64,000 nucleotides of DNA from Dryococelus australis (lineage: Eukaryota; Arthropoda; Insecta; Phasmatodea; Phasmatidae). The notes under the pieces were generated by a model that searched no databases, was not told the origin of the DNA, and worked only from the letters and a program-made list of their open reading frames with translations. How positions within the stretch are numbered: the first letter of the stretch is position 1; every line of letters starts with the position of its first letter. The stretch is from assembly GCA_029891345.1 (NCBI GenBank), contig CM057009.1, positions 91,745,416 to 91,809,415 on the forward strand, read 5' to 3'. Positions 9,770 through 64,000 of this stretch are shown here, one piece after another. Made by a program: the position numbers and the translations under genes.

Positions 9770-9842
9770 TGGGGTGGTTGTGTTGTATTGTGTTTTGTAT
9801 TCTTGTGTAGTGTTATGTATTGTTGTGTTGTATTGTGTATTT
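9770..9842. repeat. degenerate TTGTGTTGTATTG simple repeat
   Basis: Repeated TGTGTTGTATTGTG-like units lie just upstream of the polypyrimidine tract of the next exon. They are of microsatellite type with no coding content. Confidence 0.6.
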
Positions 9843-9872
9843 TTTTTTTAGTTTGTTGTTGGTTTTGTGCAG

Positions 9873-10830
9873 GCAATATGCTGTGGATCACTGTGAAGGT
9901 ACAGAAGGCCAGGTAGTAAAGGGCCAAGAATTTTCAGAAGTCAATCTGCAATACCTCTCAAACATTGGACAAAATGTGACCGTAGATGATCTACAACAAA
10001 AAGCACATGAAAAGATTACAACATGTCAAGCAAAAAGGCAAAAAACAAATTATATGCAAGATCCCAAATTTGTAGAAACTAGTGATCTAGAAGAAACATC
10101 AAATGATGATGAGGGTGCAGGTGAAAATCAGTTAGATGATTTTGTATTGCCTACTTCTACAGATACCTCTGCTTTGTTAGTTCAAGTACTCGATAGCGAT
10201 ACCAGGGACATTTTCCATGATATAAACACTCAGTTGGCTACCTCTCCAGAACAAGTATTTCAGGATGTAGGAATTATTGAGGGTACATCATTGTCAGATA
10301 TTGAGTTCAGCCAATTAGAGTCTTCTGATGATTTTAAACATGCTCCTGTGTCGATAGATGAGATATGTTCTTTGGTGTCTGTAGTTACAGACAATGATAA
10401 CATGATAGCAGATCAGGAATTGTATCCGCCAAATTCTTGTGATCCATTACTTGGGAGTGTAAGTGGATATAGTGGAGCAGATCAGGAATTGGATCCACCA
10501 ATATCTGGTGATCCATTGCTTGTGGGTGTAAGTGGATATAGTGGAGCAGATCAGGAATTGGGTCCACCAATATTTGATGAGCCATTGTTTGGGGATGTAA
10601 TTGGATATAGTGGAGCAGATCAGGAATTGTATTCACTAATATTTGATGATCCATTGCCTGTGTGTGTAAGTGGATATAGTGGCATGGATAGTAAAACAAG
10701 AAAATTTAGTTTAAATTTGCATACTGATGAAATATCAGAATACAACACTATGGAGGATATGAATATTGCTAACATTGAGTTGTTTGACCCTAGGTCATTG
10801 CTAAGCTCAAAAAAAAGAATGTCAAAGTGA
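9873..10830 (+). CDS. probable terminal coding exon of a host gene with four 23-residue repeats, function unknown
   Basis: The frame runs to a stop at 10828-10830. I place the exon start at 9873, after a polypyrimidine tract and TTTTGTGCAG acceptor, rather than at the ATG at 9820, whose leader is just the translated polypyrimidine tract. The exon gives about 318 acidic, Ser/Asp/Glu-rich residues without membrane segments. A basic patch (CQAKRQKTN) lies near residue 55 and may be a nuclear signal. Four tandem 23-residue units (ADQELxPPxxxxPLLxxVSG) occupy 10408-10683 with an exact 69-nt period. The C-terminus is SSKKRMSK. Such acidic, repeat-bearing tails are common in transcriptional regulators, but I do not recognise this one. 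Upstream exons are not identified. Confidence 0.6.
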
Positions 10831-22590: not shown

Positions 22591-24975
22591 GACTGCCGCG
22601 GTGGAGAGGTCCAAGACCCCGCGTCAGCTGTAGCTACGGACTACAACTACCGCACCATGTCTCCCACCACACTCAGCTCACGAGCACACAAAGGGGAAAC
22701 ATGGCTTTGCACACTTCTGCGGGAAAACTGGTGATCCTGTGTAACAGGTGTGAGCGTCCAGTCACAAGCACATCCACCGTAGATGATTTTGCGATCATTG
22801 CCAATACTTGCCAGTGTATGTGAACAAACAATAATGGGAAGGTCACGTACCTTAATTCAAATCAAGTACCATGTACCACATTACTACAAACATCGTTAGA
22901 AATACCAGCTTAGCTGTGCTGGGCCTGCATACACCCAATAAAAACACCCTGGTTTGCAAATCCGCTAATGGGAAAACTGTGTCAGTGCAAACCAGAGAAA
23001 ACTACAGAAGTGCAAACCAAACCTCAACCAATTCAATTATGGCTGTACAAACGGTGAAGAAATTTTGCATGGTGCAATGGAAGGGGACAGAACATAATAC
23101 CTTGTGTACAGTGTAGCCAGCCATACCACCCCGATTGCGTTGCATCACAGGAATGTGTGCACGTCGTGAAGGACAATTTGTGTGAGCATGGTGTTATGAC
23201 AGTGTCGGAAGCGACAGCGGACTGTCCATACTTGCTCAGTGGTAACCAATTACCACCCACACACTGCCAACAGCCCATGTGCTATGGTGCCGGGAATGAT
23301 GTAGTGAAGTGCTGGCTTTTGGGCATCAGGCTCACCAAAGGTGTCCCCCCATGAATGAGTAAATAGCGGACATGGAACATTAATACGAGTGCCAGGTATG
23401 CACAATGCGTCATGCACAGTGTACAGCAATGCAAACTGCCATGTATAATTCATGCATCGCCACTGTTTTCACCATACTGCTTGCATAAGCTACGTTATGA
23501 TGTAGGTTGTGCCAACCCAAGCAAGCACAGAACAGATAAAAATGTACAGAAGCAAAAAACACTCCAACAGCCAGTAACACACCAGCACGGTTTCAATCGT
23601 TACCATAGATTGTGGGATTACTGACAAGAGGACTATACTACCCAGTTCCACCTTTATGGTGTTTGCGAGAAAGAGTGGCATAAGTGCTTTGGGGACCAGC
23701 TGAGCAGAGAGAGACAAAATGGTGGCGATCAGTTAACCATTTTGGAATGAAATAGATCTCATTTTTTATCAGCATTCCAGTGCCAATATAATGGTACATT
23801 CTCCTCGTTACAAGCACGACATTGTGCAGTATTTTTTTCTGGCCTTTGGATACATAAAAAAATTGTCTATGTTACACATGATTGTGGCATGTTTTTGTTT
23901 TACTAATGGGAATAATTTGCTTCTGATATAAATTTAAATACAAGGAGATTTATTTGGGCTTAATGCCATTTCTTTACCACACAATACACACGAAAGAATA
24001 ATATCTTAAGAGAGTAAATGGTTACATTTACAGTGTTTGATTTCAAAAAAATTTATAAAACTCTCAATCAACATACAAACGATACATGCACATATAATGT
24101 TCTCTGTTTAGAATACATATTACTCTTATACAGGAATTTCGTCAGCACACTTCTCAAGCATTCTATATACAATTACCAAAGTAAAACAGCAATTCATTTT
24201 TCAAAAAATGGCAAATTATTAGATCTAGTTCATTGAATGAAATTAAGAAAATTATATTCTGTAAAGCAAGAGAAAATTAACAAAGTAAACATAATTTTAC
24301 AGAAATTGCAAATCTCTAAATAAAATCATTTAATTTTATAAATTGAAAATACTGTGCTAAGAGTTAACATGCTATAGTACATTTTGTTTGGATGCAATGC
24401 CAATATTCTATCACAGTTAAACCGTGCAGCTAAAAGGATAATAGTAGAGGATAAATTGACAGCTTTACAAACTATTGTCTTGAAAAGAGAAGTAAAATTT
24501 TCCATCAACATAAGACACAAAATAAGACCTCTGTTTTCATAGACACTTAATCTTCATAAATTAATAATATTACACTTTCATACAAAGCAGCAATAAAATA
24601 AATATTTGCATTCATTAGCATACCACATTGTACACAACTGCAGAGTGCAGAGTAGAAGTAGTAACGCTAAGTTACATAGTTTGAATGTGGATTTATTATC
24701 ATATCTCAGTAAATGCGAAGTACCTACACAAAATAGTTTAGAAATATAGTAACTAAACATTTACAAAGCAAATAATTTAAAAGAATGGTTTAGTACTCCA
24801 CCATTGTAACACAAGAACACACCTCTTGATAGTTAAGTATAAAATTATTACAAGCATTACTTAAGACAACCAAAATTGTTTCAGTACGAGTATTGTATGT
24901 ATAGTTTGGTAATATGCTACTAATACTTAAGAAACACCAAATACTGATTTTCTCTCTCCAGTTATAGTTGTAAAT
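22591..24975. other. unassigned stretch between Gypsy and hAT fragments
   Basis: The first 1.1 kb is GC-richer with many short open frames on both strands and no motif; it could be further decayed retroelement. From about 23740 the DNA is AT-rich with no recognised feature. Confidence 0.3.
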
Positions 24976-27170
24976 TCTCACAGAATATCATCCAAGTCAA
25001 GTCCAGTCGTATGTATAGAGTGAACATATAACAGCAATAAGTGTGTAAGTTTTTTTGTGACATGCTATTTTGCAAATAAGTCTTGACATATTTTAAATAA
25101 CTAAATGATCTTTTAGCAGATGCTGAAGAAGCAGGAACAGTTAGAAGCAATGCAATTAGACATACGACTTCATCCAATAATGCTAACGTATTTTTAGGCT
25201 GATTCTTGAAGCACTTTGCCAAAGAAGAAACAGAGATGACTCCTTCACAGTCTCTGTCTCCTGTTACTGTTAGTAACATTACGAGCTGGGCGGACAATTT
25301 TAAGGTATTGAAATCGGAATTGATTTTATATTTGCGGAAGATTGTAGATAATTGGTCTGCAGAATTAGGCTTGCAATTTTTTCTAGGTTTACAAGAGTTA
25401 CCACCCCAGGTTGTTGTAATCTCCGTTGCAACTCATTGCTCACTATGTCTGTCACAGAGATATACTCTTTGCAGAAATGACTTTTGGGCGCAATTGTTGC
25501 AGGGGCCGTAGGAGCGTTTGTTTATTCCAGCCTCTTGGTGGATTTAGTCTGCCTTCTCATCTCAGGAGATTTCAAACGAAGATTTCTTGCAGTTTCTTCT
25601 GAACTATCCCATAGGCTATTGATTTGCTGTTCTGTTCACATGCTAGCAGTAGTTTTTAAAACAATTTCTGCAGACTCTTTTGCACCAATAGCTGTGCAGC
25701 TTGGTTTTTGCACATTATTAGCCTTTAATTTGCATGGACCAAATACAGAAATTGTAACTTTGATGGCGAAATAAGTCTTCATGCAGTTTAGTTGTTTTTT
25801 ATATCCTTTCAAAGCAGCTCTTCTCTCATTTCTTACATCTCCATTTGTTTTAAGCAAAGTCTTGACAGTTTCCTGCACTCTTTTGTAATTATCAATAAAC
25901 CTTTTCAGAGACTTCACTTGAACTGCCCATCTTGTTGGACAGAGAAGTAGCAACTTTTTTAATTTTTCTTCTTCTTATTACTAATCAGTACATTTTTATA
26001 ATTTTTTTTCCTTTTGTGAGTCCAAAATTATTGTACTCACATCTTTAACAAGTCCAAGAGCGTCGCATAATAATTCACAACTTTTTGCTTCTTCCTGAAG
26101 TACTAGATCTAAAGAATGATTACTGCAATGCACAAAAATGGACTTAGGTTGAATGTCACTAACTTTTTTCTGAACTCCAGACAGATGACCAGCCATGTTC
26201 GCTGCACCGTCAAAGCAGTGTCTCCTAACTTTCTCAAAATCTAATCCTAGACGTGTCAAGATGTCTTTTATACATGCAAAAAGTGTATCGAATTTTGTAT
26301 CTTGAGGATGATACATTCCCATGAATTTCTCTGATACCTGAAGAGAAGTGGATCAACATTTCTCAAACAGATACTGAACTGTTCGTCACCAGCTGCATCA
26401 GTTGCACAATCTACTATAGTACTAAAGAAATCACTTTGTTTTATTTCTTGTATAATTTTTGTTGAACTTGATGAGCCATGATTTCCAAGAGCTCATTTCG
26501 AATTTTTCCGTCCAACCAATTGTCTTTTCTTGCAAGCCAAGAAGCGAGAACAGGGACATCCACACTTTGTTCTTCCAAAAGATAATGTAAATTCCCACGA
26601 TTATTTACAGACCCACGAATGGCTTGTCCCGTTCATGCCAAATACCTCCCAGAACTCAACACTACCTTCATAGCAGTTCTAGCATCCACTTTCTGTTGTT
26701 TAGACTGAATACTTAATAAATCTATTACTGGTGTTCCTAGTCATTTATGCAGAAGAAAATTAACAGAAGCTGCATGTTGTTCACTTCTTTCATAAACATG
26801 AAACTTTTCACATGCTTTTTTCCTATTTCTGAAACCATTTTCTAGAAATGCCATTTAAGTGGATTTTACAGATGGGTTACATTTGAGATTGTGTGAATTC
26901 ATGCACTCGTAACAAAATACAGCATCCTTTTCTTCTGCATAATGCAGCCACTTGAAAGTATCAAACCATGAGACAAGACATTCCCACGAGTGGGAAACTA
27001 TATTGTTTTGAAGGTTGTCTTTGTTCCTCGATGTTGTTTACAGCAGCACATTTGTCAAAGTGATGAGAAAGGTCTGAAAACTCATGGATAATTGGCGTAG
27101 CTTCAGAATTGAGACTAGAAGAGTTGGCACACTCAGCCACCTCCTTTTTCTTTTTAGGTTCCCCACCTAA
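24976..27170 (-). pseudogene. hAT-superfamily transposase of TTF/ZMYM1-like type, decayed
   Basis: Blocks on the minus strand in order: a TTF-type zinc-finger segment (about 26850-27010, WLHYAEEKDAVFCYECM, then NGFRNRKKACEKF), RGSVNNRGNLHYLLE, and the catalytic-region motif CFDGAANMAGHLSGVQKK with VHCSNHSLDLVLQEEAK (about 26050-26220). Then follow LCPTRWAVQVKSL (about 25920) and the C-terminal hAT dimerisation segment SSASAKRSFSYLKYVKTYL (about 25080-25140). The order matches full-length proteins of 700-800 residues. Several stops and frameshifts interrupt it. No terminal inverted repeats or 8-bp duplication were found, so the element's ends are unknown and it is probably old. Confidence 0.87.
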
Positions 27171-28865: not shown

Positions 28866-31800
28866 TCAATGCAGCAATACAAGATAAAAGGAACGCAACA
28901 TAGTAAAGATGCTTGGGAAAATTATTCTTAAGCGCCCCAAAACTCTCAATTCCCACGTTTGGCCTTCCTCATGGAAGGGGGCGCAAGAGAGACATCCTTT
29001 GCCCCCCCTCCCAGCCCAATTTCCGAGGGGGCGGTCGTCTCCCCCCCTTCCCCTTTGGCACTGCAACAGACCCTACTGCAACAGCTCCTCATAGATCAAA
29101 AACCTACACCAAATAAGTTCATACTCATTTCAGTGTATGTCAACAATGTGAAGTACTTTGCCATTATTGACACAGCCGCATTCCACAAATTTGTATGGTC
29201 AGGGTTCGTTGATACGAGAGCTGTGTGGCCTTACAGCGAAGCCATTCATTTTGCCACAACCAACAATAATGGGGAAACCATGGGGAAGCCAACATCACAG
29301 TATGCATAGGCGACCTCGAGACGAACACAGTATCACTCGTCAACGAGTTATGTGAAGACGACATTCTCGGTCTCCTATGGCTAACTGAACAAATCTCTAT
29401 TGTTGGACCACTAGTGAGGAGAATCCTTTTCGGCAGAAGGAAGTGTAGAACAGTCTACAATCTACACCCCTGCTCTAGCAACCATTCACCAAGCCTCAAG
29501 CTCGAAGATCTGGACCATGAGGTACCAACCAGCTTACCATGGCACGGTACAGCAAGTGCTAGAGGAATGACTGGACGTATTTGCAGCTGCGGATCCTTAA
29601 CTATGTGTCAATGTCGCAGAGCACGTAATACCAACTGAACATGATGTGTCCATTTCAAACCACTATGCAGCTACCTTAGCCACCTGAGTAAGATCATCCA
29701 AGATCAAATATGTGAGGTGTTGGCAGAGAGGTTATGAAACCAACAGAAATACGCTACAATTCAGCCATCACACTGGCGCCGAAGAAAAAAGGAACATGGC
29801 ATTTCTGCATAGATTTTCGACCCCTTAACCTGGTCATCAAAAGGGCCCTCCTCCCTACTTAATCATTAAGGGTGCAATTTACATCTTAGGAAAGGCGTCA
29901 AAATCATGTCATCCCTGGATCTGTGCAGTGGCTACTGGCAAGTTCCAGTGAAGCCAGAATACATACACAAAACTGCATTCACCACGCCAGATGGTATACG
30001 GTTTCAATTCTGTGCGATGCTATTGGGTTGAAATGTGCACCATCCACATTTCAAGCCATGATAGTCCAGGTACTAGACTGTCTGGTAGGCGACTTCATTT
30101 GGTCCATGATGTGGGAAGTCCACATTCACCACCTCCCCCTAGTACTGGAGTACCTTGCCATCAATGGGCTCATGTGCACGAACCACAAATGCCACATAGG
30201 AAAAGTATGGCTGGACTTCCTGGGACATATTGTGGACAAAGAATGTAATGGACCGAACCGCAAACAACTGTGAGTGATGAAGAGGACTACGAAAGATCAT
30301 GCACCAGGATGTGGGTCAAAAATGTTTCGGCCTGCTAACTGGTTGCGTGAGTACATCCAAGACAACTGCACCACTCACCACACTTATGTCGCCCAGCCGC
30401 AAGTTCGAGTGGAATGCAGAAGCGGAGGACAGTTTCCCCGCCATCAAGAGCAGTTTTAGGGAGTGCAAGGCCCTAGCACTTCATGAACCCAGCAGACATT
30501 TTTATGTCCAGCCAGACGCCAGCGAACAAGGCCTAGGCAGCACCCTGTTCCAACTCGGCAATAATGGCGAATATCTTATCATCGATTACAACCGGGATAA
30601 GCTTGGGCCAACTGAAGAATTGTATGATGGCGAGAGAGAGTACCTTTCAGTAGTGTGGGCACTCAAATGGTACAATCCATATTTGGACTACCAGCACTTC
30701 ACACTATGGACTGACAACTGCAACTGTTGTCTGGTCTGGTTGCACAGTATGTGTGAAGCATGGAGCAAACTGACCTGCTGGTCAATGCTACTGCAAGCAT
30801 GCGATTTCCACGTCGACCATGTCCCAGGCACAGAACCAGCTGGCCTACATGCTTTCCAGCTCACCAAAAGTGCAGACCACTGTGTAAGATGAGGAAGAGT
30901 GGGGAGGGCTACTTCCCCCACCCCTACAGAAAATGCCAGTGACAACAACACACCAATCTGTGCTAACTTTGTTGTGCCAGATGTCAAGCTCAACTATCTC
31001 TGTGACACTGTAGCAAGGTCACAAACAACTGAACTGGATCCACAGGCCAAGGTCATACTATGCAACCAGCTGACACAGACTGGTGACACATAATCAACAA
31101 TGAACTGGAGACTAGGCCGCATGGATACAACACCGCTTGGAAAATCTATGTGCCAGCAGCACAACCCGTAGATGTATTCCACTATATGCACAGCACAACA
31201 TTTGCTGAACACCCAGGTGTGAAGCAAACAATGAGGAATGTGTTACATCACTTCCATTGGCCCGGCATATCGTACAACGTAGGCAATTATGTTCGAGTGT
31301 GTCTACCTTGCAACAGCTTCAAGGCTCGATGTGCCAACTGCCATAAACAACAACACAAAACACCTAGGGAGCAATTCGAGATGGTAGCCCTCGACCCGAT
31401 GGACACCTTCCAAGACATCGATGGGGAAAATGTTCGTGGTGATCTTCACTGACCTGCTCTCCAGGTGGACAGAGGTGTATACAGTGCCCAGCGCACACAC
31501 AAGGCACATTGTCTGCATCCTGGAGAATGAGTTATTACAACGGTGGGTATATCTCTGATCATTACTGGCAGACAATAGGACGCAATTCATTGGAAGGAAG
31601 TGGCGTAATCTTTATACAAATTGGGAAGTGATGCATAGCACGACAGCGCTCTATCATCCTCATTCCAACCCATCGGAGCACAGAAACCAAAACCTCAAGG
31701 TCCAACTGCTCCTCCGTTCGGGGAAAGACCACAGATCCAGCGCCGGCCAGTTGCCCAGCGAACGCTTTACACTATGCTGATGTACCAATGAAGTAACAGG

Positions 31801-33300
31801 CATGTCACCTGCCGCAATATTGCAAAGGCGTGAGTTTAAACTCCCAGGCATATACAACTGTCTGCCAGCAGAGGGTGCCAGTGAACCAGAGAGTATTGCT
31901 GCCAGGCAACGGAGGAGAGTGCAAAAGCTGGATACAGCCCATGAACAACAGCCCACCTATATCAAGTGTGTACCCCTCACTACGCAACCACAGAAGCTAG
32001 TACAACCCAGGCAGAAGATCTTTGTCAGGGAGCACCTGCTGCCCTCGGCATGGAAAAAACTTTTGTGCTTCCCTAGGCATCAAGTGGAGTGGTCCACATG
32101 TAGTCAAAATGGCTTGAGGACCACCACATATCTAGTCCATGTCAATCGTCAACAAATCATCCGTGTCCACAGAGATGACCTCATGCGAGCTTGGCGTCAG
32201 GAAGCTCAAAGTCAGCAGATGCCGAACCACCTTGGCGTCAGGAAGCTCAAAGTCAGCAGATGCCGAACCACAACAAATAACATGTAACAGACCGTCAACT
32301 CTAACGGCAGAATCATCAGACTGCCACACAATAAAAGACATACTTTTCCCCATGACGCCCGGCGTCAAAATGCCCTCAAGGATATTAGGTTGAGGACAAG
32401 ACTCAGCATCACACACAACAGCAGCCTAAATATCATCAGCACAAGCTACAGCAATGCCTGCACATATCACGATGCCCCGCATCATAAAGCCTACATCGAG
32501 GTGCCCTGTGCTAAGGCGTCCACTCAAGCAGACCCTGCCGAACCATGTATAGACGAGGAGACACCTAGAGGCAGTAAGCCCAGACATGCTTGTCTCCCAG
32601 TGGCCACATCATGTCGACATCAGAGAACACAGAGTGCAGCACAGAAAGTACTCTATGGGCGGCCAGTCAAGACATCCGAGGGGCAACTCCTCAATGGGGA
32701 CTCCAGCTACCCCCTCGATATCGCCGGCCAAACCGGCGCCCCTATACCAGTAGCAGCAGCAGTCATGAGAGTGGGAATGAGAGTGACTACCTCCACGCCG
32801 CTCCAAGCGACCTCGTCCAGTCACATGGGCCCAGTGTGTAGTCTGTCGGGACTGTATGTCCCACAGCACTACCAGGTACCAGTACACCCGTCAACAATGC
32901 CCACTAGTGTCACTCAACACAACACCAGCAGAGCGACCATCGCAGGGGGGTTAAAACCTGCGACCATGCAGGGCCCATCTGTCGGTTCCAGCATGCTGCA
33001 CCTGATCGCGTAGCTACCCAGCGGATGGTGGCGTGGTGCACGAACATTCTCCTGAGAGGTCGCTGGTCTCTGCGACTGTTTGCCATGCCACAATACATAA
33101 ATGGCCGAACACTATGCCGACAAGAACTTCGGGCATATTCATCAGCTACAGTATCTTGATGGTGTTTCAGAAAGTGCCCCAACACTTTGCAAGTCAGCTG
33201 CAGTCCCACATTGATTCAACCACGTGGGCGACACCAGGACAGCCTCGTGGTTCATATTCCAACCGACCAGCACATGTGACTTTCAGGGCATAGCATGTGT
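28866..33300 (+). mobile_element. Ty3/Gypsy LTR-retrotransposon, copy 2 (broken)
   Basis: A fossil on the plus strand with parts in the usual Gypsy order: gag end and protease-like region (about 28950-29310, ISVYVNNVKYFAIIDTA), reverse transcriptase (about 29780-30270, FLGHIVDKE), RNase H (about 30300-30890), integrase zinc-binding and core (about 31150-31700, HPGVKQTMRNVLHHFHWPGI) and a C-terminal plus accessory region (about 31800-33010). The most complete RNase H and integrase of the Gypsy copies here are in this one. It is broken at many places. LTR ends are not securely found; the DNA to the right may include its 3' LTR. Confidence 0.85.
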
Positions 33301-50427: not shown

Positions 50428-51140
50428 CTAGGTTTGGTTAATTTTCAAAACTTTGTTCTCCCTGTCATTAGTTATCTCCAACCCAAGAAAATGTTTCAGT
50501 TTTCCTTTTTCTTTAACCTCAAAATTTGATGCTGGCTGAGACTTAACATAATTTATGAGATTAATGCTTGAACTGGTTAGAATAATGTCATCCACATAAA
50601 GCAGTAAATACAAAGTTTCATCTCCACTCATCAATGCAAATAGACAACATCGTTTTCAGACCTTACAAGGCCTAATTCTAACATGGCCTAGTTAAACTTG
50701 TCATTCCAGCACTTAGGTGCCTGCTTAAGACCATACAAAGAGTTATTTAATTTAAGAACAGAGTTAGGCTTACAACTAACACCAACTGGTGGATAAATAT
50801 ATACATCTTCATGCAATTCCCTATTCAAATATGCAGTTTTTACATCCAACTGCTCAAAATGATAAGACTTCTGATTTCCAACAGTTAGCAATGTTCTTAT
50901 GGTAGTCATTCTAGCTACTAGTGCATATATAACATAACAACTCACACTTCCTTCTTGTGCAAACCTCTTGCAACTAGTCTTGCCTTATACCTGTCACTTA
51001 CATCCTCCTCTAAGGGTTTCAATGCAGATACCCACTTTGCATCAATAACTTTAATATACTTTGGGTTTTCTACTTCCTCCCAAGTTCTATTTTCTTTTAA
51101 TAGACTCAATTTCCCAATCCATTGCTTGTAACCACATTTC
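50428..51140 (-). pseudogene. Copia reverse transcriptase region (fossil)
   Basis: Recognisable blocks are QLDVKTAYLNRELHEDVYI and SLYGLKQAPKCWN (about 50688-50945) and the active-site box LLYVDDIILTS with KHFLGLEI (about 50428-50634). These are diagnostic of Ty1/Copia reverse transcriptase. Confidence 0.92.
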
Positions 51141-51513
51141 CTTGTCGACCCTTTTTTCTACTTCGTTATGGTTCTATGAAACATTCTCTACAAAACTCAT
51201 CACATTATATGCCATGTATATTTCATAGTCATCAAATCTTTTTGGCAACCTTACACTATGTTTGTGATCCCTAAATACACTTTATTTTCCTTCTTTACAT
51301 TTACATCTACTGGACTGACACTAACATTTTCAGGTTCACTACAGTCCCCAGCATCCTGTTTACATTCTACAAGTTTTCTTTCATTTCTTTCTTCAAATAT
51401 AAAATTTACTTCATTAAACTTAACATCACATGACACTTTGATTTTTCCCTTTTCAAGATTCAATAGCCCATAACCATTTTGAGAATACCCCACTAATATA
51501 CACTTTTTCTGCC

Positions 51514-52211
51514 TTATTGTCTAACTGTGTACACAACTCCTTTGTTACTCCTTAGGCTGTATGCCGCACATCCAAAAACCCTCAAATTGTTTACGTTTGG
51601 CTTACACCCATACCAGATTTCAGCCGGTGTGACTCCTTCCATGCTTGCAGTTGGACTACGATTTACAATATAAGCTGCTGTTCTGACCACTTCTCCCCAA
51701 AGTTGTTTAGGTACCCCAGATTCACTGATCATACTAAGTACCCATTCGACTAAACTCCTATTCATCCTTTCTGCCTTGCCATTTTGTTCAGGCGTGTATG
51801 GCACTGTCTAATCAAGAATTACGCCTTTATTTCTACAAAAATCAATCAATTCTTGTGCAACCTTCTCTCCTCCATTGTCACATCTTAGCTTTGATACAAA
51901 CTGCCCAAACATATTGCCTGTCATACTATAATAACCTTGAAAACATTTCGTAACTTCACCTTTTGACTTGATCAGATACGCCATTATAAAATGAATGTAA
52001 CAAAATATTTATGACTCTCTTTTGTAGTAGGTGAAATTGGACCACACACATCTGAATGAACTTTGCCTAACACACTGTTATTTTTTGTTCTGTTACCAAA
52101 TGGTAAGCTTGTTAGCTTTCCATTTACACACTCCTCACAGAATTCAACTTCGTTCATATTTAACTCCTTGTTTATCCCTTCCACCATGTTTTGACTGACA
52201 GTTTTTTTCAT
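51514..52211 (-). pseudogene. Copia integrase region (fossil)
   Basis: A pre-integrase zinc-binding tail with CEECVNGKLTSLPFG and VHSDVCGPI (about 51984-52211) is followed by the core block PYTPEQNGKAERMNRSLVE (about 51700-51804), a standard Copia integrase sequence. Confidence 0.9.
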
Positions 52212-52370
52212 TTCAGATTAGTTTACGTGACCTAACCTTCTATGCCATAGCTTATTTTCGTCACCCTCTCCAATTTTGTGTCCCTGAAGGCACAACTGTA
52301 CATTACCATTCTGAAAAACAACCTTAATATTAGCTTTTTCTAAACATTTCACTGATAACAAATTTTTTTC

Positions 52371-53580
52371 TTAGGTTTGGTACAAAAATACATTTTGTGC
52401 AGTACATTCAGTTCTTTTACCCTCTACTTCCAAAAATCCATGAATATTTCCTACACCTGTTACCTGAATCACACTATTGTGTTTAGCCACTGCTATCTTA
52501 AGAGGCTCTTTCAATTCTACAAACTCAGAAAATACACTTCTGTCATTCAACCCTACCATATGATTTGTACACCCTGAATCTACACAGGAACTCACAACAG
52601 CATTTTTGCTCATACTATAATTGTCTGCTTCTATTTCACTTATGAAACAAATTTTGCTACAATTAGGGTGACTAGTTTATTTACCTTGAGTATCCATGTC
52701 AACATAATTGCTTTTTGGCTCACCCATTGTTGAGTAATGTTGAGATTGATTTTACTGACGACCAAATGCTTGGAAATGTCAGCTCTGGTGAACATTTCCA
52801 TAATACCTTCCAGGTCGATGATGTCCATGAAATCCCTCTTGGTAACCCTGCTGAGTTGCACCTCTTAAGCTGTTCCTGGGTAGCTGCTTACAGTTTCGAC
52901 GAATATGTCCTTTCTTGCCGCACTCACAACATACACTTTGAGTTGCTGATGATAATGCTGATGGCACCAATGCATTTTGTACTTCAGTCTTAGTAGATTT
53001 ACACTTGCGTTTTTCTTCTTTTGCTCGCAGCTTACTCTTCACAAATTAAGTGTTAATGTTTCTGGTGGCATATTTTCAATGACTGTAACCACTACATCGA
53101 ATAACTTGGGTAAACTCAACAAAAAATTGCATATAGCATCATTATCCTTTAATTCTACACCAGTAAATTTTAACTGCCTTACCACTTCATCAAACAGCCT
53201 CAGGAAACTATCTGCACTTTCACATTAATTTAGCATCATTGACTGTAACTTCTTTAAATTCAATTGCCCAGGCAATCCCTTCTTCTCGTATAGATTTTCT
53301 AAGCACTTACCTTATCGCGCAAATTCTCTATTTGAGAATCATCAACACATTGAACAATTAAGTTTCTAGCACGATTTTCTTTTATCTGATCTGAATCACA
53401 TGTCGGTTTTCCATCTTCAATTTCACCATATTTCTTGTTAACACACTCAGCAACATCATTTTCCGCAAGTAACATAAGCAATCTGTACTTCCAATTGTAG
53501 TAATTCGAGCCATTTAGTGGCTCTACCATATAACCAACTTTATGTTGCATGACCATTTTCTTTAATCTCTGAATAGCCAC
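52371..53580 (-). pseudogene. Copia gag and protease region (fossil)
   Basis: Gag starts near 53580 with the NYYNWKYRLLMLL stretch typical of Copia gag. A CCHC zinc knuckle (CCECGKKGHIRRNC) lies near 52880-52931, and the aspartic protease motif DSGCTNHM near 52560-52580. Confidence 0.9.
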
Positions 53581-57787: not shown

Positions 57788-59990
57788 TGGTATGTTTTAT
57801 TTTAAAAAGGGCTTTAATTATTTGTTGTAAAATGGTAGTGTTTTCATGTTGTGCACCTGTGTTATGCTGTATGTCTTAGTGCACCAGTGCCCCGTACAAC
57901 GTGTGTAACTTGTGTTGTTTTGATATAGGGTATTGTTTATGTTTTAATAATTATTAACCGAACCATTGTGTTTGAGTGCCACTGTGTTCTGTTTAATTCA
58001 TAAGATAATTGGATGGCGATATGTTATTTTTAAGAGTGTTCCGTGTCAAAGTACCTGTCTGGCACATTTCTTCAATATTAATTCAGCCTCGCGTTGACAA
58101 GAATTTTGGTAGTTCAACATAGTAAATATTCTTAAATAATTTTGTTTGCATTGTATGGACGTGCACCTAATCTAATATGATTTAATTTAATATACTATTT
58201 TCACTGTCAGTATTGCGACCGTAGTTCCAGTAGTGGGGTCAGTAGAATGAGGCTATGTATGTCAACCACAATAAAGGCCCTTACAAAATTGAAAACTTAA
58301 ACATTTGACTTTACAAATTGACTTTACGTTTGCTTTCCAACATGTTGTTTCTTATGGAGATTGACACAACTGAACTGTCAAACGTAAAGTCAAGCACTCT
58401 TGACTTTACAATTTCGAAACATTGAAATTCAAAGTCAAGATCAAGCAGCCATTTTGACGAGAATATAACAGAGGTTATGTGGAAAGTGCATAATTTTATT
58501 GTAGGGTGATTTTTTCTCGGTGTATTAAACAAAGCTCTTCTTAAAATAAATAAATGGCAACAAATATAATGTGAAGTGGAAATATATGAATTGACATATT
58601 TTGATAAAGTAAACAAATTAGTGTTTTGTTTTGAAATAAACATTTAAGAAAAATTTTTGTATATTCCTTAAAAGGTGCATAACATGCATTCCTGGATAAT
58701 ATAATTATTTAGATAACAAGATACACATTTTTATGAAACTTGCAGTACTGATGTTCAACTGTCTGAACTCTGACTACAATAATTGTATTGTGTATTGGTG
58801 GTTTGGTCAGAGGACGGGAAATAAAAAGTCAAATGCTAAAGTTTTCTATTGTGTAAAACGCTTACAGCCATAATGCATAAGAACAACCACCTATTCAGTT
58901 AACTTAAATTTTTCCATAATTCTTATTTTCGAGTTTATTGTGTGTTTGTAATGTAATTGTAGCCCCAAGTAAAACAGTCTGATATAATAGGCTTCAAAGG
59001 GGTCAACTCGAGAATGAAGTAATCACGTACCAAACATGTGTACTAAATTCGAAATAAGGCTAATTCATATGTCAATAGTGAAGGGTAAAATGAAATATTT
59101 TTATTTGTGTTTTATGTTTTGATTGTATATTTTATAATGCCTTGTGTGATGTGTAACCTTCATCATTCCTTTGCCACATAAATTTTAATTTCATATAATT
59201 AAGTCTTGTTGAATAAGAGCACTTGTGATGTCACGCAGGAGCTTATGCAACAGCTGATTGGCTCCTGCGCAGGCATTCAGTAGTAGCATCATCGTATCTC
59301 GTGGGGTAGATCGTGCATGAGGGCCCGCTTGGGGGACTTCGACTTTTTTCTGCCAATCATGTAACTGCCGTCGTTAACTTTAATATTTCTGGAACCTTTT
59401 ATATTTTACTCACCTCGGAGCATACGCTACCCCATAGCCCAGTCCATTTGTACACCACCTGGATGTAACTTGCACGGCATTGGGTGGCCGAAACAACTCA
59501 TCATGTATGTATTGGCATGATGATGGGCGAAAGATTCGCCAGGACCATGAGGGGAAATGAGGTGTGGTGGATAGGAATTGATGTTTGCCAGGGTTAAGGG
59601 CGCTAGCCCGCGGTGCGAGCACAAAGTTACACTTGGTAGAGACTCCCCCTCTAGGGTCGTGATGGCCAACGACCATTGCCCTGTACCCATGTCCACGTCT
59701 TGATAGATGTTACCAGTTGTAATACCTTTCTGCCAGCTGTGAATTACACTCTAATTGCCTCATCTAGTCAGGGATGTCACCCCCCTGATACGCCAGCTCA
59801 CTCCCAAAGTGTTATTATGGCTACCATTATTAAATATACGAGGTCTATACAAACTGTTCAAAGTGTTCAAAGATCAATTTCTTTGGCACTGCGATTGAAC
59901 GATGTTTTGGTGTTCGTTGCGAATGGAGATTGTGGAAACTTTTAAACATTTTTATGTTTTTCCACATTCCTTTGTAAACGAGGAAAACGA
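57788..59990. other. non-coding stretch with a hairpin near 58318-58394
   Basis: TTGACTTTACGTTTG (58318) and its inverted copy CAAACGTAAAGTCAA (58378) can form a 15-bp stem around about 45 bp, with further GACTTTAC copies nearby. A GC-richer patch lies at 59220-59720. No gene was recognised. Confidence 0.35.
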
Positions 59991-60060
59991 TATTTTTTAC
60001 AGCTGTTGAGCTGAAAATAAAATTAAAAAAAAAACTTTTTTTTAATTACAAAAAAAACGG

Positions 60061-60069
60061 GTATATAAA
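60061..60069 (+). promoter_or_regulatory. TATA box ahead of the nuclease gene
   Basis: GTATATAAAG lies about 60-100 bp upstream of the first ATGs of the plus-strand gene, in an otherwise GC-richer leader. It has the placement of a core promoter. Confidence 0.5.
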
Positions 60070-60158
60070 GAGACGAGAGCGCCTATTTGTTTCGCATTAA
60101 TTGTTTTCCTTTCGTAAGAGAATAACAATGTTGGTGCATATAGAACTGTGAGATTTGT

Positions 60159-60926
60159 ATGATTTGTATCTCTAGAGGAAAACACAACTATTCGGTGCAC
60201 AATGATTCATGCAAAACCTTTATCACTGCTTCGACATGTGTTTCAAACACCTTTCCAAAATTTCAGTCAAAGAAAATGGCCTCTTACATAGCGATTTTGC
60301 ATAAGTTTTCCATCGGGCCATACGCTGATTTCCGAACCTATGACGATCCGGTAGCCGCCATCGAAGAAAAATGGAAAATTCAGTCGAGAAGTCATTGATT
60401 TGGGAGTTTAACTACATACAGATATCGAAAATAACTAAAAATCGTACGAGCAAAACTACCCGATGCGATAGACGATACGTTTACACAATTTTTAGATTTC
60501 GACTGCGATGTTAGACAAGCCAACGGCTGGACACCTTATACATCGGAGTTCAGAGAACGAGATGTTGATTTCGGTCTTTGTGGAACAATCGACATGCTTT
60601 TCAAGTCCAAGCAGGGTGATTTGGTGACAGTCGAGTGGAAACGTACACCAAAGAATTTCGAAGAGTCTCGTGACTATTATGGACTTGGACCTCTATGTAA
60701 CGTATTAGCATCACAACTAAACAAGTACTCTTTGCAGCAAAACATTTATCGTTATATATTCAACAAGGAAATAAATTTATATCTGACCATGTGCGGACAG
60801 AAAATCACCGAAATGTATCTACTGCAAATGCACGTAAACCTGTCGAATTACAAGTTGTTGTCGGTAGTTGATTTTGACGAAAATGTGATTGAGAAATGTT
60901 TAATTTACACAATCGATAATGAATAA
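60159..60926 (+). pseudogene. PD-(D/E)XK-type nuclease gene of the virus-like cluster (fossil)
   Basis: The C-terminal part reads GTIDMLFKSK, then VTVEWKRTPK, the Asp...Glu-x-Lys arrangement of PD-(D/E)XK nucleases, with an acidic beta-strand followed by EWK. Such enzymes act in viral DNA recombination, resolution or host-DNA breakdown. Downstream helices contain YSLQQNIYRYIF, similar in layout to RecB/YqaJ-like nucleases where a Q-x3-Y motif follows the core. The family call is made from motifs only. The gene ends 14 bp before the convergent ATPase gene. The N-terminal region is less certain. Confidence 0.5.
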
Positions 60927-60940
60927 AAATTGTTTAGTTT

Positions 60941-62200
60941 TTACTTCTTGTCATCTTGAAATTTGTTGTATTCTTCTTCATTCATTATTCTTGTACTAGC
61001 AATTGATTTGTTGAAATGATCCAAGTTTAGCCTGAAGAAAATTCTGTCGTTTGTCTGGATGCTGTTCCGACACAGTTCGTAGATGGTTTCGAGACGCAAA
61101 GTCAACACTGTCGATTCGTTTGCATTTTCGAGTACTTTTAGCGCCACTTCGTATGCAATGTGTTTACTCACGTACTTTTTCCTTTGGTATGTGTACGTGC
61201 AGAAATTTGATTTTCGATCGCGAACGAGAATGGCCTGTCTTTGTAGTTTTCCAATCTCGCCATATGATTTATGGCCATGACGTTTCTAAAAGTGAGGTAT
61301 TGTGGTAGAGAAATATTATAAATCACCCGATGTTGGTATTCTTCATCCCAGTCCTTAAGATGGTGATTCTTAATGAACTGAAAGAGACCAATTAATGCGC
61401 CGCGACATTCTTCCTCCGAAGACAAGTTGATAAAGTAAAAGGCATGGGTTCAGTCGAGGATTGTAGGTCTTATCGATTTTTTTGTAATTGGTTGCAGCTA
61501 CAATTAAAACATTATTTTCATTTAAACACCTCCTTCGAGACCGGTTTGGGGGGTAATTGCCACACTTCGCAAATGGGGTGAACTTGCCAAGTTTTGCAAA
61601 ACTATCTCTTCGATTTCACCTAGAAAAATCACGAATCGCTGGTTGTGGTTCTCGATGGTCATCTTGAACAAATTGCCACACTTCGCAAATGGGGTGAACT
61701 TGCCAAGTTTTGCAAAACTATCTCTTCGATTTCACCTAGAATTAATTGGCTTTCCATTCGGGCGCGATTGCGCGGGCCAGCGTACTCTTACCCGTACCCG
61801 GAGGACCGAAAAACATTATAAATTTGAATCGTGGGTTAAACACTTGCGTATAGATTAAAATCTTGAATTCTGCTTTCAACTGGTCGCGGCCACGTACATC
61901 CTTAAAAGAAAATTGGGCTTCTATTCGCCATGGGTCCAGCTCGGATGTAATCTCCGAATTTGATTCTCCTCCAAATAAATCGCTCGCATGCTTGGAATTC
62001 CGAATGTAACCGAGAAATACATTTTTAAACAGGGCCGTTAAATGTTCGAGATTATTTTTCGATAGCAGAGCACATCTGAAAATTGTCGATTTTTGTACCA
62101 AGTACACCCACGATTTGTAAATAGTGTATTGATTTTCAGCCAGCGTAGATTCCCGCTCCGTTAATATTTTTGAAAATTCTTCACCTATACTAAAGAGCAT
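60941..62200 (-). pseudogene. AAA+ ATPase gene of the virus-like cluster (fossil)
   Basis: The minus strand carries a Walker A box FFGPPGTGKSTLARAI (about 61770-61820), a Walker B-like acidic strand and a sensor-like AATNY further along, then a helical C-terminal part. The GPPGTGKS-plus-AATN pattern is that of classic AAA and AAA+ motors (remodelling or helicase-loading type), rather than of the FtsK/A32 packaging ATPases. An N-terminal stretch of about 120 residues before Walker A has no known domain. It is convergent with the nuclease gene and separated from it by 14 bp. Confidence 0.6.
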
Positions 62201-62424
62201 ACTCTCTAAATCATTTAAACGTTTTTCACCTTTCGGCGAAGTGATTTGTGTTTTTTTCTAGCGAAGATTACAAAAATTTCGCAAGGTTCAGCATTTGAGA
62301 TAATTTTTCCATGTTTGCATGTTCGCCAAATGCGGTTTTCGGCGCACATGTAAACTGAATTAGTCTGGCTACTATGGTGGCGCGAACGCTTTCATTCATT
62401 TTTTTTCATCTGGGTTTTCCGCAG

Positions 62425-62433
62425 TACTTATAA
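62425..62433 (+). promoter_or_regulatory. TATA-type box ahead of the unknown gene at 62641
   Basis: CTTATAAGA lies about 210 bp upstream of the ATG in a leader rich in CAACAG repeats. It is a plausible core promoter of a compact gene cluster. Confidence 0.4.
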
Positions 62434-62640
62434 GATTCTTTTTTATCGTCTTGCAGCACCAACAACAGCAACAGCAAAGAACCTTGTTTCCATCCTTGCA
62501 ACTTCAACCACTCAGACCACAGTGCACCGACTGTGACATTCTCATAACGAACCAGCAATCTTATTCTCAGCCGCTAAACTCTTCTCCCCCCCCCCTCTAA
62601 TCCACCACCTATTCATTTACAAAGACCTCATGTAAACACC

Positions 62641-63424
62641 ATGACTGAAATGTCCATTCCTCGCATCGGCATGCGAATAGAGCCAGATTATGGATACGTA
62701 GAATTGGTGCAGAAACTTAAAAATTACATACATCAATTTGTGGATATTTTGACGGGAATCCGTACGACCATCACACAAACAAAAAAGGCGATCGGTGATT
62801 TTTTTTGTGTGCTAAATACGTCGGTGGCTATGAAACGAGTGGCTATACATTTCGCCGAGCTCGGTCGACTAGAATTGAAAATGGAGAATAATGGAGCGGT
62901 AAGTCATCAGTACGTGGAAATTATAAAATCCATCCTTGATTCGAAATATAAAAACGTGCTGGGAAATATAACGCGGTTCGGTCGAATCCTCGAACAACAC
63001 AATCCTCTAACCGCATTCACTCTCTTTCAAATGTGGCTGAACGGATCTATCGAAGCACAGCCTGTACTCAACACCCACTCGTTCATCAAACAAATTAAAT
63101 TGGTTCCACCTTTGCAATCTCCATTCGATGCTTTTATGAAAGCAGCTTTGGAAAAATGCAACAAAAGAAAAAATCGACTACGAACTTTGTCGTATAATAT
63201 CGGAGAGTTTGGAAAAGAACAAAACCTACGTCGTCAGCGAAATCAGGCACGAATTTCTACCACTGAATGAATCAGCATTCAAATATGCATCTTTCAACCA
63301 CTTCAAGGAACAGTTCGATGGATTTGATAAAAAGTCTTTGTTTTTTCTCGAAATGATGAATAAAAAATTAGCGATGTATCTAACGTATATGCAAACATTC
63401 ACGTTTCATAAAAAAATTTATTAA
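62641..63424 (+). pseudogene. unknown gene of the virus-like cluster (fossil)
   Basis: The first part is a 209-residue frame opening MTEMSIPRIGMRIEPDYGYV, mostly helical in look, with no membrane segment. A second frame overlaps its end and continues to about 63424. I do not recognise the family. Its strong ATG context after a TATA-type box and its poor match to host composition support it as a real former gene. It lies on the plus strand, between the ATPase and the last gene. Confidence 0.45.
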
Positions 63425-63612
63425 TAAAAAAGTTTTTTAATTTACATATTTCTATATGTATCTAACCCATGAGTTTGAGTTCTGTGCTATTGTCATCAGA
63501 TGTATTTTCCTCGTCATAATCGTTACACTCGACACATTCAAATACTTCCGTTGGGAAAACAAATGTTCAAAATTATAAGCTAATAATAATACCTAATATA
63601 AGAGCGAAAATC

Positions 63613-64000
63613 ATGTCTGGCGAAATCGTCAGTGAAAGTGTTCTTATCTTAAAAGACGACCAGATCCGTATTCACACATTTGATGTTGATTTAGAAATTC
63701 ACAACAGCCTTAAAACTTTCGATATTTGTTTAAGAATATTTCACCAGTGTTGTATCAATCAGTCAACTATTAAGACTGCACTGTGGCTGGTGCTCGTCGA
63801 ACTAAATTGGTGAAGCGAACGCACGATATCGACCAATACGAACAGCATCTTCAATTCACAGGCAATGAGAATTTCGCATTCGACTTTCACAACAATGCCA
63901 ACAATGTGTGTGAAGTAAAACTTCAAAAGACTCCACCGCAAAATGAAAGAACCCCGATAATGAACCAGGTTCAGACATCGCCCGTGTATTTAAATGAACT
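63613..64000 (+). pseudogene. unknown gene region of the virus-like cluster, cut by the window edge
   Basis: It opens MSGEIVSESVLILKDDQIRI. A basic stretch (ARRTKLVKR) and a Gln/Asn-rich tail follow to the window end. The family is not recognised. It may be a structural or DNA-binding protein, but nothing beyond composition supports that. Confidence 0.35.

Follow-up and report, generated by a model that had tools for sequence, protein, structure and literature searches.

What is the dense group of genes at the right edge of a 64,000-nucleotide stretch of the Dryococelus australis genome (C17:91745416-91809415, hereafter the window)? A sequence-only reading had described it as a compact virus-like cluster beginning at position 59,991, in which a nuclease and an ATPase converge ahead of two further genes, and had left open whether it came from an endogenised large DNA virus or from a capsid-bearing DNA element. 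The genes that follow to the right and the other copies in the genome decide for the former, and for the class Naldaviricetes. The cluster is, in all likelihood, part of a decayed copy of a large, baculovirus-related double-stranded DNA (dsDNA) virus of this class, with Lefavirales-type markers (Ac81 and the LEF-5 C-terminal domain), which entered the insect germ line. That the DNA is virus-derived and no ordinary transposon had been rightly recognised.

Naldavirus Genes

The class Naldaviricetes has P74, PIF-1 and PIF-2 among its signature genes (PMC10271883). Homologs of the three (pif-0/p74, pif-1, pif-2) were found over the Pfam cut-offs, together with a B-family DNA polymerase (polB). In profile searches, all run on the same genome of 3.415 Gb in 646 contigs, P74 (PF04583) gave at least 145 matches (150 scored of 380 candidates, best E 1.3e-14), PIF-1 (PF05092) at least 79 (83 scored, 170 candidates, best 5.1e-15), PIF-2 (PF04631) 39 out of 104 (best 1.1e-9) and Ac81 (PF05820) at least 139 (150 scored of 203 candidates, best 1.1e-14). 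The four profiles matched in none of 14 control genomes, which are all bacteria and archaea and hence a weak control.

The right-hand side of the window copy was read as separate 10-kb stretches (L009, L010, L057, L062), whereas L002, L004, L021, L022, L060, L061, L063 and L064 are loci of other copies. Viral features of the window copy were followed as far as about +32 kb from the nuclease, and a polB match lies at +57 kb (C17:91863360, E 5.8e-5), an offset similar to that in six other copies. The cluster is therefore not compact; PIF-2 and polB lie too far away for a compact element, which was rejected. The Ac81-like frame at +9.5 kb reaches only E 0.0073 by itself; its DNA is 85% identical to L064, whose Ac81 match is the best of all (E 1.1e-14). 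The same copy holds a LEF-5 C-terminal domain (LEF5_C, PF11792; 25.8 bits against a cut-off of 24, E 8.6e-6), PIF-2 at C17:91825917 (E 3.2e-4), a dUTPase (5.1e-16; NCBIfam 3.5e-20 in the same frame set), a Rho_N-type domain (3.3e-9) and IAP-type domains (BIR 1.1e-21, RING 1.7e-8). In the adjoining stretch L062, Ty3/gypsy-like retroelement frames were found, and integrase domains were assigned to it by eye.

These frame scans against Pfam comprised 136 frames and cover part of the element: a first scan took in 93 of 119 listed frames, and a second 43 frames (11 of 28 from L062, 20 of 21 from L063 and 12 from other loci). The latter found PIF-1 (3.8e-11), as well as a polysaccharide-lyase-8 N-terminal match (1.2e-4), taken by eye as an ODV-E66-like frame in L063. 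Among the 93 frames, one matched BRO-N (2.9e-4) and one the polB exonuclease domain (0.009), the latter not being among the three long L059 frames. For pif-3, pif-5 and p33, no family appeared at E <= 0.01 in the 136 frames of this part of the element, and no dedicated genome search was made. Weak matches to Baculo_F (9.9e-4), DUF4309, DUF5125 and FST_N, whose members were not identified, were not built on.

AT-rich repeats in direct and inverted orientation, called hr-like by analogy, are found in some three parts of the viral element. They occur at L057:6944-8630 and L010:417-851 in the window copy, at L063:365-1272, and also in L021 and L022; none was found in the window itself.

Polinton/Maverick elements and adintoviruses had also been considered. 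They were dropped after the PIF, P74 and Ac81 genes had been found, their own hallmark genes not being searched individually.

Copies Across the Genome

The cluster is not single, and there are many copies genome-wide. For the nuclease, all of the 150 candidates scored, out of 503 in this genome, are matches; these best 150 are spread over 14 contigs, and the P74 matches over 16. Neighbours were counted by their offset from the 150 nuclease matches, and all neighbour figures hold among the matches listed (best hits). Ac81 lies near 53 of the 150, to the right in 51 and on the opposite strand in 49, with a mode at +8.8 to +9.5 kb; when the Ac81 positions were moved by 1-5 Mb in 200 trials, an average of 2.5 neighbours remained, and never more than 8. 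PIF-1 accompanies 32 matches, always on the left, on the opposite strand in 30 and mostly at -4 to -11 kb, while P74 accompanies 40 (37 left, 36 opposite strand), mostly at -12 to -20 kb. PIF-2 was seen near 14 (13 right, all 14 on the same strand). The genome has 33 polB matches. Thirteen of them, in three tight clusters, probably represent host exons and were left out of the count; among the remaining 20, 7 are found at +21 to +68 kb relative to a nuclease match, all to the right and all on the opposite strand.

For a tyrosine recombinase there were 21 candidates, two of which pass Pfam and are 84% identical over 2.5 kb. Recombinase-side DNA lies within 100 kb of 12 of the 150 nuclease matches, in 11 cases to the right, at +18 to +89 kb. 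The suggested search to the right for hallmark genes and terminal repeats has yielded a polB match and, in other copies, a tyrosine recombinase, but no element ends. Altogether, most large contigs carry copies, well over a hundred of which were scored, and wherever neighbours could be found the gene order was nearly always the same.

The overlap of the nuclease and Ac81 lists gives roughly 434 loci (150 x 139 / 48), an underestimate if both lists favour the same well-kept copies. The genome probably holds several hundred decayed copies, which would have spread through the chromosomes in the manner of a giant transposon. By profile coverage the P74 matches seem to be of two sorts (positions of about 36-196 and about 36-166), which may reflect two subfamilies or a widespread truncation.

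A tree was built from the window copy and the 29 next best of the 150 nuclease matches scored by likeness to the window. It is a star: the terminal branches have a mean of 0.070 (0.049-0.101) and sum to 2.10, compared with 0.089 for the internal ones. It bears on the possibility that the copies owe their spread largely to segmental duplication of host DNA or to a transposon of the host, and not to viral replication and integration. Such a course is unlikely, since the 150 nuclease matches lie on 14 contigs and the star of 30 suggests a burst and not stepwise duplication; on its side is the failure to find element ends or a target site.

Placement Within the Class

Placement in Naldaviricetes can be made with confidence, and a position near Lefavirales with less. 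In Table 2 of PMC10271883, Ac81 and LEF-5 appear under families of Lefavirales but not under Nimaviridae, and both have been found here, ac81 in at least 139 matches and lef-5 in one copy over 29 residues. A nimavirus in an insect, of the same class, without Lefavirales transcription genes and living as a giant transposon, is likewise an unlikely explanation. Its high copy number and tyrosine recombinase do resemble those of endogenous nimaviruses (PMC10871703), and LEF-8 and LEF-9 were not found. Against it stand the clear Ac81 matches and the LEF-5 C-terminal domain, and no telomere-repeat target was seen: no exact (TTAGG)3 occurs in 64 loci, and none with two mismatches in the window, the element ends being unseen.

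Several points weigh against the assignment to a multicopy Lefavirales-like virus. The LEF-5 match is short and comes from a single copy, and the LEF-8 and LEF-9 profiles have no match in the genome, the controls being silent too and without a positive control. The polB match is tied to the window copy by its offset, across the unread stretch C17:91849316-91863359. Among the matches listed, 97 of the 150 nuclease matches have no Ac81 within 80 kb, and the recombinase exceeds the Pfam cut-off in two copies only. The copy number is a rough figure, the tree sample was chosen by likeness to the window (best 30 of 150), and neither element ends nor a common target site have been found.

That the lineage is undescribed is plausible, though not established. 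No description of a naldavirus element in a stick insect was found in the open-licence literature by title and the start of the abstract, among the matches listed, although the nudivirus remnants of Cheng et al. 2020 might include one. In the available text of the D. australis genome paper (PMC10268593), the word 'endogenous' is absent and 'viral' occurs once, in the reference list; in that of the Clitarchus genome paper, neither 'nudivirus' nor 'baculovirus' occurs. Searches of viral_contigs with gene 3, the AAA+ ATPase, PIF-2 and P74 confirmed no relative, such single-protein scans detecting close relatives only, and profile searches of the PDB with PIF-2, P74 and the nuclease reached a best E of 0.73.

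Tentatively, and with somewhat more doubt than belief, the element may represent a new lineage of family rank in Naldaviricetes, close to Lefavirales, whose way of life in its polyneopteran insect host was that of a giant selfish element. One burst in the germ line by a recombinase-carrying genome would then have left some 400 or more copies, as an insect counterpart of the endogenous nimaviruses of crustaceans. If so, the element might make up as much as one per cent of the chromosomes, which is a guess.

One Burst and Decay Among the Sampled Copies

The sampled copies are about 12% apart, and the window copy differs from the others by about 13%. Private changes are evenly spread over the three codon positions in both the nuclease (114/105/113, p 0.80) and the AAA gene (137/130/118, p 0.46), and so are shared changes (56/52/62 and 64/65/74, respectively). 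Because of this evenness and the star tree, one burst followed by neutral decay fits the 30 sampled copies, whereas repeated infection over a long time by a virus that kept evolving is at odds with this sample. The burst would be about 20-70 My old at assumed rates of 1-3.5e-9 changes per site and year. In-frame stops are present in 106 of the 150 nuclease matches, and the sampled copies look like inert fossils today.

Naldavirus genes have often been domesticated in wasps (PMC10259472), and a domesticated virus (viriform) retained for a host function might therefore be thought of. The even private changes in the nuclease and AAA genes and the stops in most nuclease matches make it very improbable.

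Junction with Host DNA

The window copy (59860-64000, +) is truncated on its left and continues to the right of the window through L009, L010 and L057. In all 29 other copies, the match starts at window positions 59851-60027, and each of them extends at least 881 bp further left; related open frames were seen there when the left parts of L002 and L004 were compared by eye. Homology with the other copies thus begins at about 59,860, and not at 59,991 as proposed. A high-copy host repeat of about 340 bp (59518-59855), SINE-like by eye, adjoins the viral sequence on the left. It was scored in 40 of 868 candidates; the 39 other full-size rows are 82-88% identical, and 29 of the 39 end at 59852-59855. 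Since all 29 other copies continue leftward and the host repeat abuts the break, the left edge at about 59,860 is a truncation private to the window copy. No further viral stretch was detected in window 1-59,860 by blastn against the sampled loci.

The cluster is joined to host DNA. It is most improbable that the assembly was contaminated here or holds a viral contig unlinked to the host. Nothing was found in favour of this, whereas the copy lies inside a 326-Mb contig, abuts the host repeat, has retroelement frames in the adjoining L062 and is about 13% different from the rest of the sample.

The Four Genes in the Window

The nuclease and the AAA+ ATPase do converge as described, which is borne out by the frame stops and by Pfam. 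The stop of the nuclease frame 60435-60926 (+) falls at 60924-60926 and that of the lowest AAA frame 60941-61285 (-) at 60941-60943, leaving a stop-to-stop gap of 14 bp (60927-60940). The PD-(D/E)XK nuclease is a pseudogene (60128-60926, +), whose start ATG at 60128 runs quickly into a stop; its pieces 60144-60398 and 60435-60926 were read apart and not mended. With the nuclease frame of the window itself no Pfam family reaches E <= 1; among nine aligned members, six hit PF12705 PDDEXK_1 (best 3.1e-6). Ahead of it, TATATAAA at 60062-60069 (+), then CATT at 60095-60098 and TAAG at 60115-60118, were picked out by eye as putative elements.

The AAA+ ATPase pseudogene (60941-62257, -) consists of at least five frames (61742-62257, 61522-61731, 61370-61615, 61168-61449, 60941-61285). 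It matches PF00004 in the window with E 1e-5, as do 6 of 7 aligned members (best 2.8e-22), and Walker A, Walker B and sensor-1 motifs were recognised by eye. An exact 71-nt repeat lies inside this gene (61555-61741), with copies at 61555 and 61671, 116 nt from start to start.

Two further genes follow, as had been noted. Viral gene 3 (62641-63424, +; frames 62641-63270 and 63140-63424) and viral gene 4 (from 63613 to 64000 and beyond, +; frame 63520-63813, then from 63774 into L009:1-230) match no Pfam family above the cut-off. Of the TATA-type leaders ascribed to them, a weak TATA-like stretch was seen by eye for gene 4 and none for gene 3. The cluster is not intact: the nuclease and AAA genes of the window copy are broken relative to other copies, and genes 3 and 4 apparently too. 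Structure models were poor, with a mean pLDDT of 35.8 for the nuclease and 46.2 for gene 3 (62641-63267), which is unusable.

Elsewhere in the window, a 339-aa open frame (9811-10830, +) contains several repeats of about 25 residues (SGYSGADQEL...). By eye, frames resembling the C-terminus of a hAT transposase (24962-25432, -), a gypsy-type RNase H (30281-32287, +) and, within strongly negative GC skew, broken Ty1/copia-like frames (50688-53580, -) were also noted.

Element Ends and Integration

The left end at 59,860 is private to the window copy. A candidate attachment site or element terminus beside the recombinase (L061 near 2481) was considered and is now less favoured: a sharp joint separates an hr-like repeat from the recombinase region there, but both sides continue elsewhere. 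With a piece of L061 as query, 38 of 40 matches end at query base 330-333 and another begins at 332; L061 itself is the sole locus that runs through. As the hr-like repeat continues in L057 and an open frame crosses the place in L060, a deletion private to L061 appears the more likely origin of the joint.

The virus may have replicated in germ-line nuclei by means of its own polymerase, and copies could have been inserted by the viral tyrosine recombinase, by analogy with endogenous nimaviruses, or via breaks and host repair. Integrase genes are present in Lefavirales other than baculoviruses (PMC12548425), and the gene alone therefore proves no integration. The PIF proteins would once have been used for oral infection, and the nuclease and AAA+ ATPase may have served in viral DNA processing or recombination.

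Comparison with Known Systems

High-copy endogenous naldaviruses are already known as a kind, from nimaviruses in crustaceans and from copies in ants. The endogenous nimaviruses of crustaceans (Majanivirus, Pemonivirus, Clopovirus and others) reach 22 to 477 copies per haploid genome; like the stick-insect element, they are large pif-carrying dsDNA virus genomes in many copies with tyrosine recombinases (PMC10871703). Their copies are called almost identical and insert in microsatellites or 28S rDNA (PMC10871703), whereas the sampled stick-insect copies are divergent and decayed, have no target found, and carry Ac81 and the LEF-5 domain.

The AmFV/LGDV-like endogenous viruses of ants likewise combine an insect host with naldavirus genes in many paralogs, one AmFV-like case having 135, including 22 of pif-1, 18 of pif-2 and 24 of integrase (PMC10259472, PMC12548425). 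They differ in that paralogs are fewer and that the LGDV-related ones are mostly reported to be under purifying selection (PMC10259472, PMC12548425). The endogenous nudiviruses of aphids and a planthopper also belong to Lefavirales and live in insect hosts (PMC7916170; PMC7943256), but LEF-8 and LEF-9 profiles remain unmatched in the stick-insect element. Teratorn of medaka is likewise a large DNA virus that multiplies in the manner of a giant mobile element (PMC10175614); it is, however, a fusion of a piggyBac-like transposon with a herpesvirus part (PMC10871703) and not naldaviral.

The element may account for part of the unclassified repeats of D. australis, which amount to 1.56 Gb in the published assembly (PMC10268593). 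Its many copies from one burst offer a clock and a means of testing the timing and manner of germ-line colonisation by such viruses. Large pif-carrying viruses as high-copy genomic parasites are now extended to a stick insect, with genes of the Lefavirales and not of the nimavirus type.

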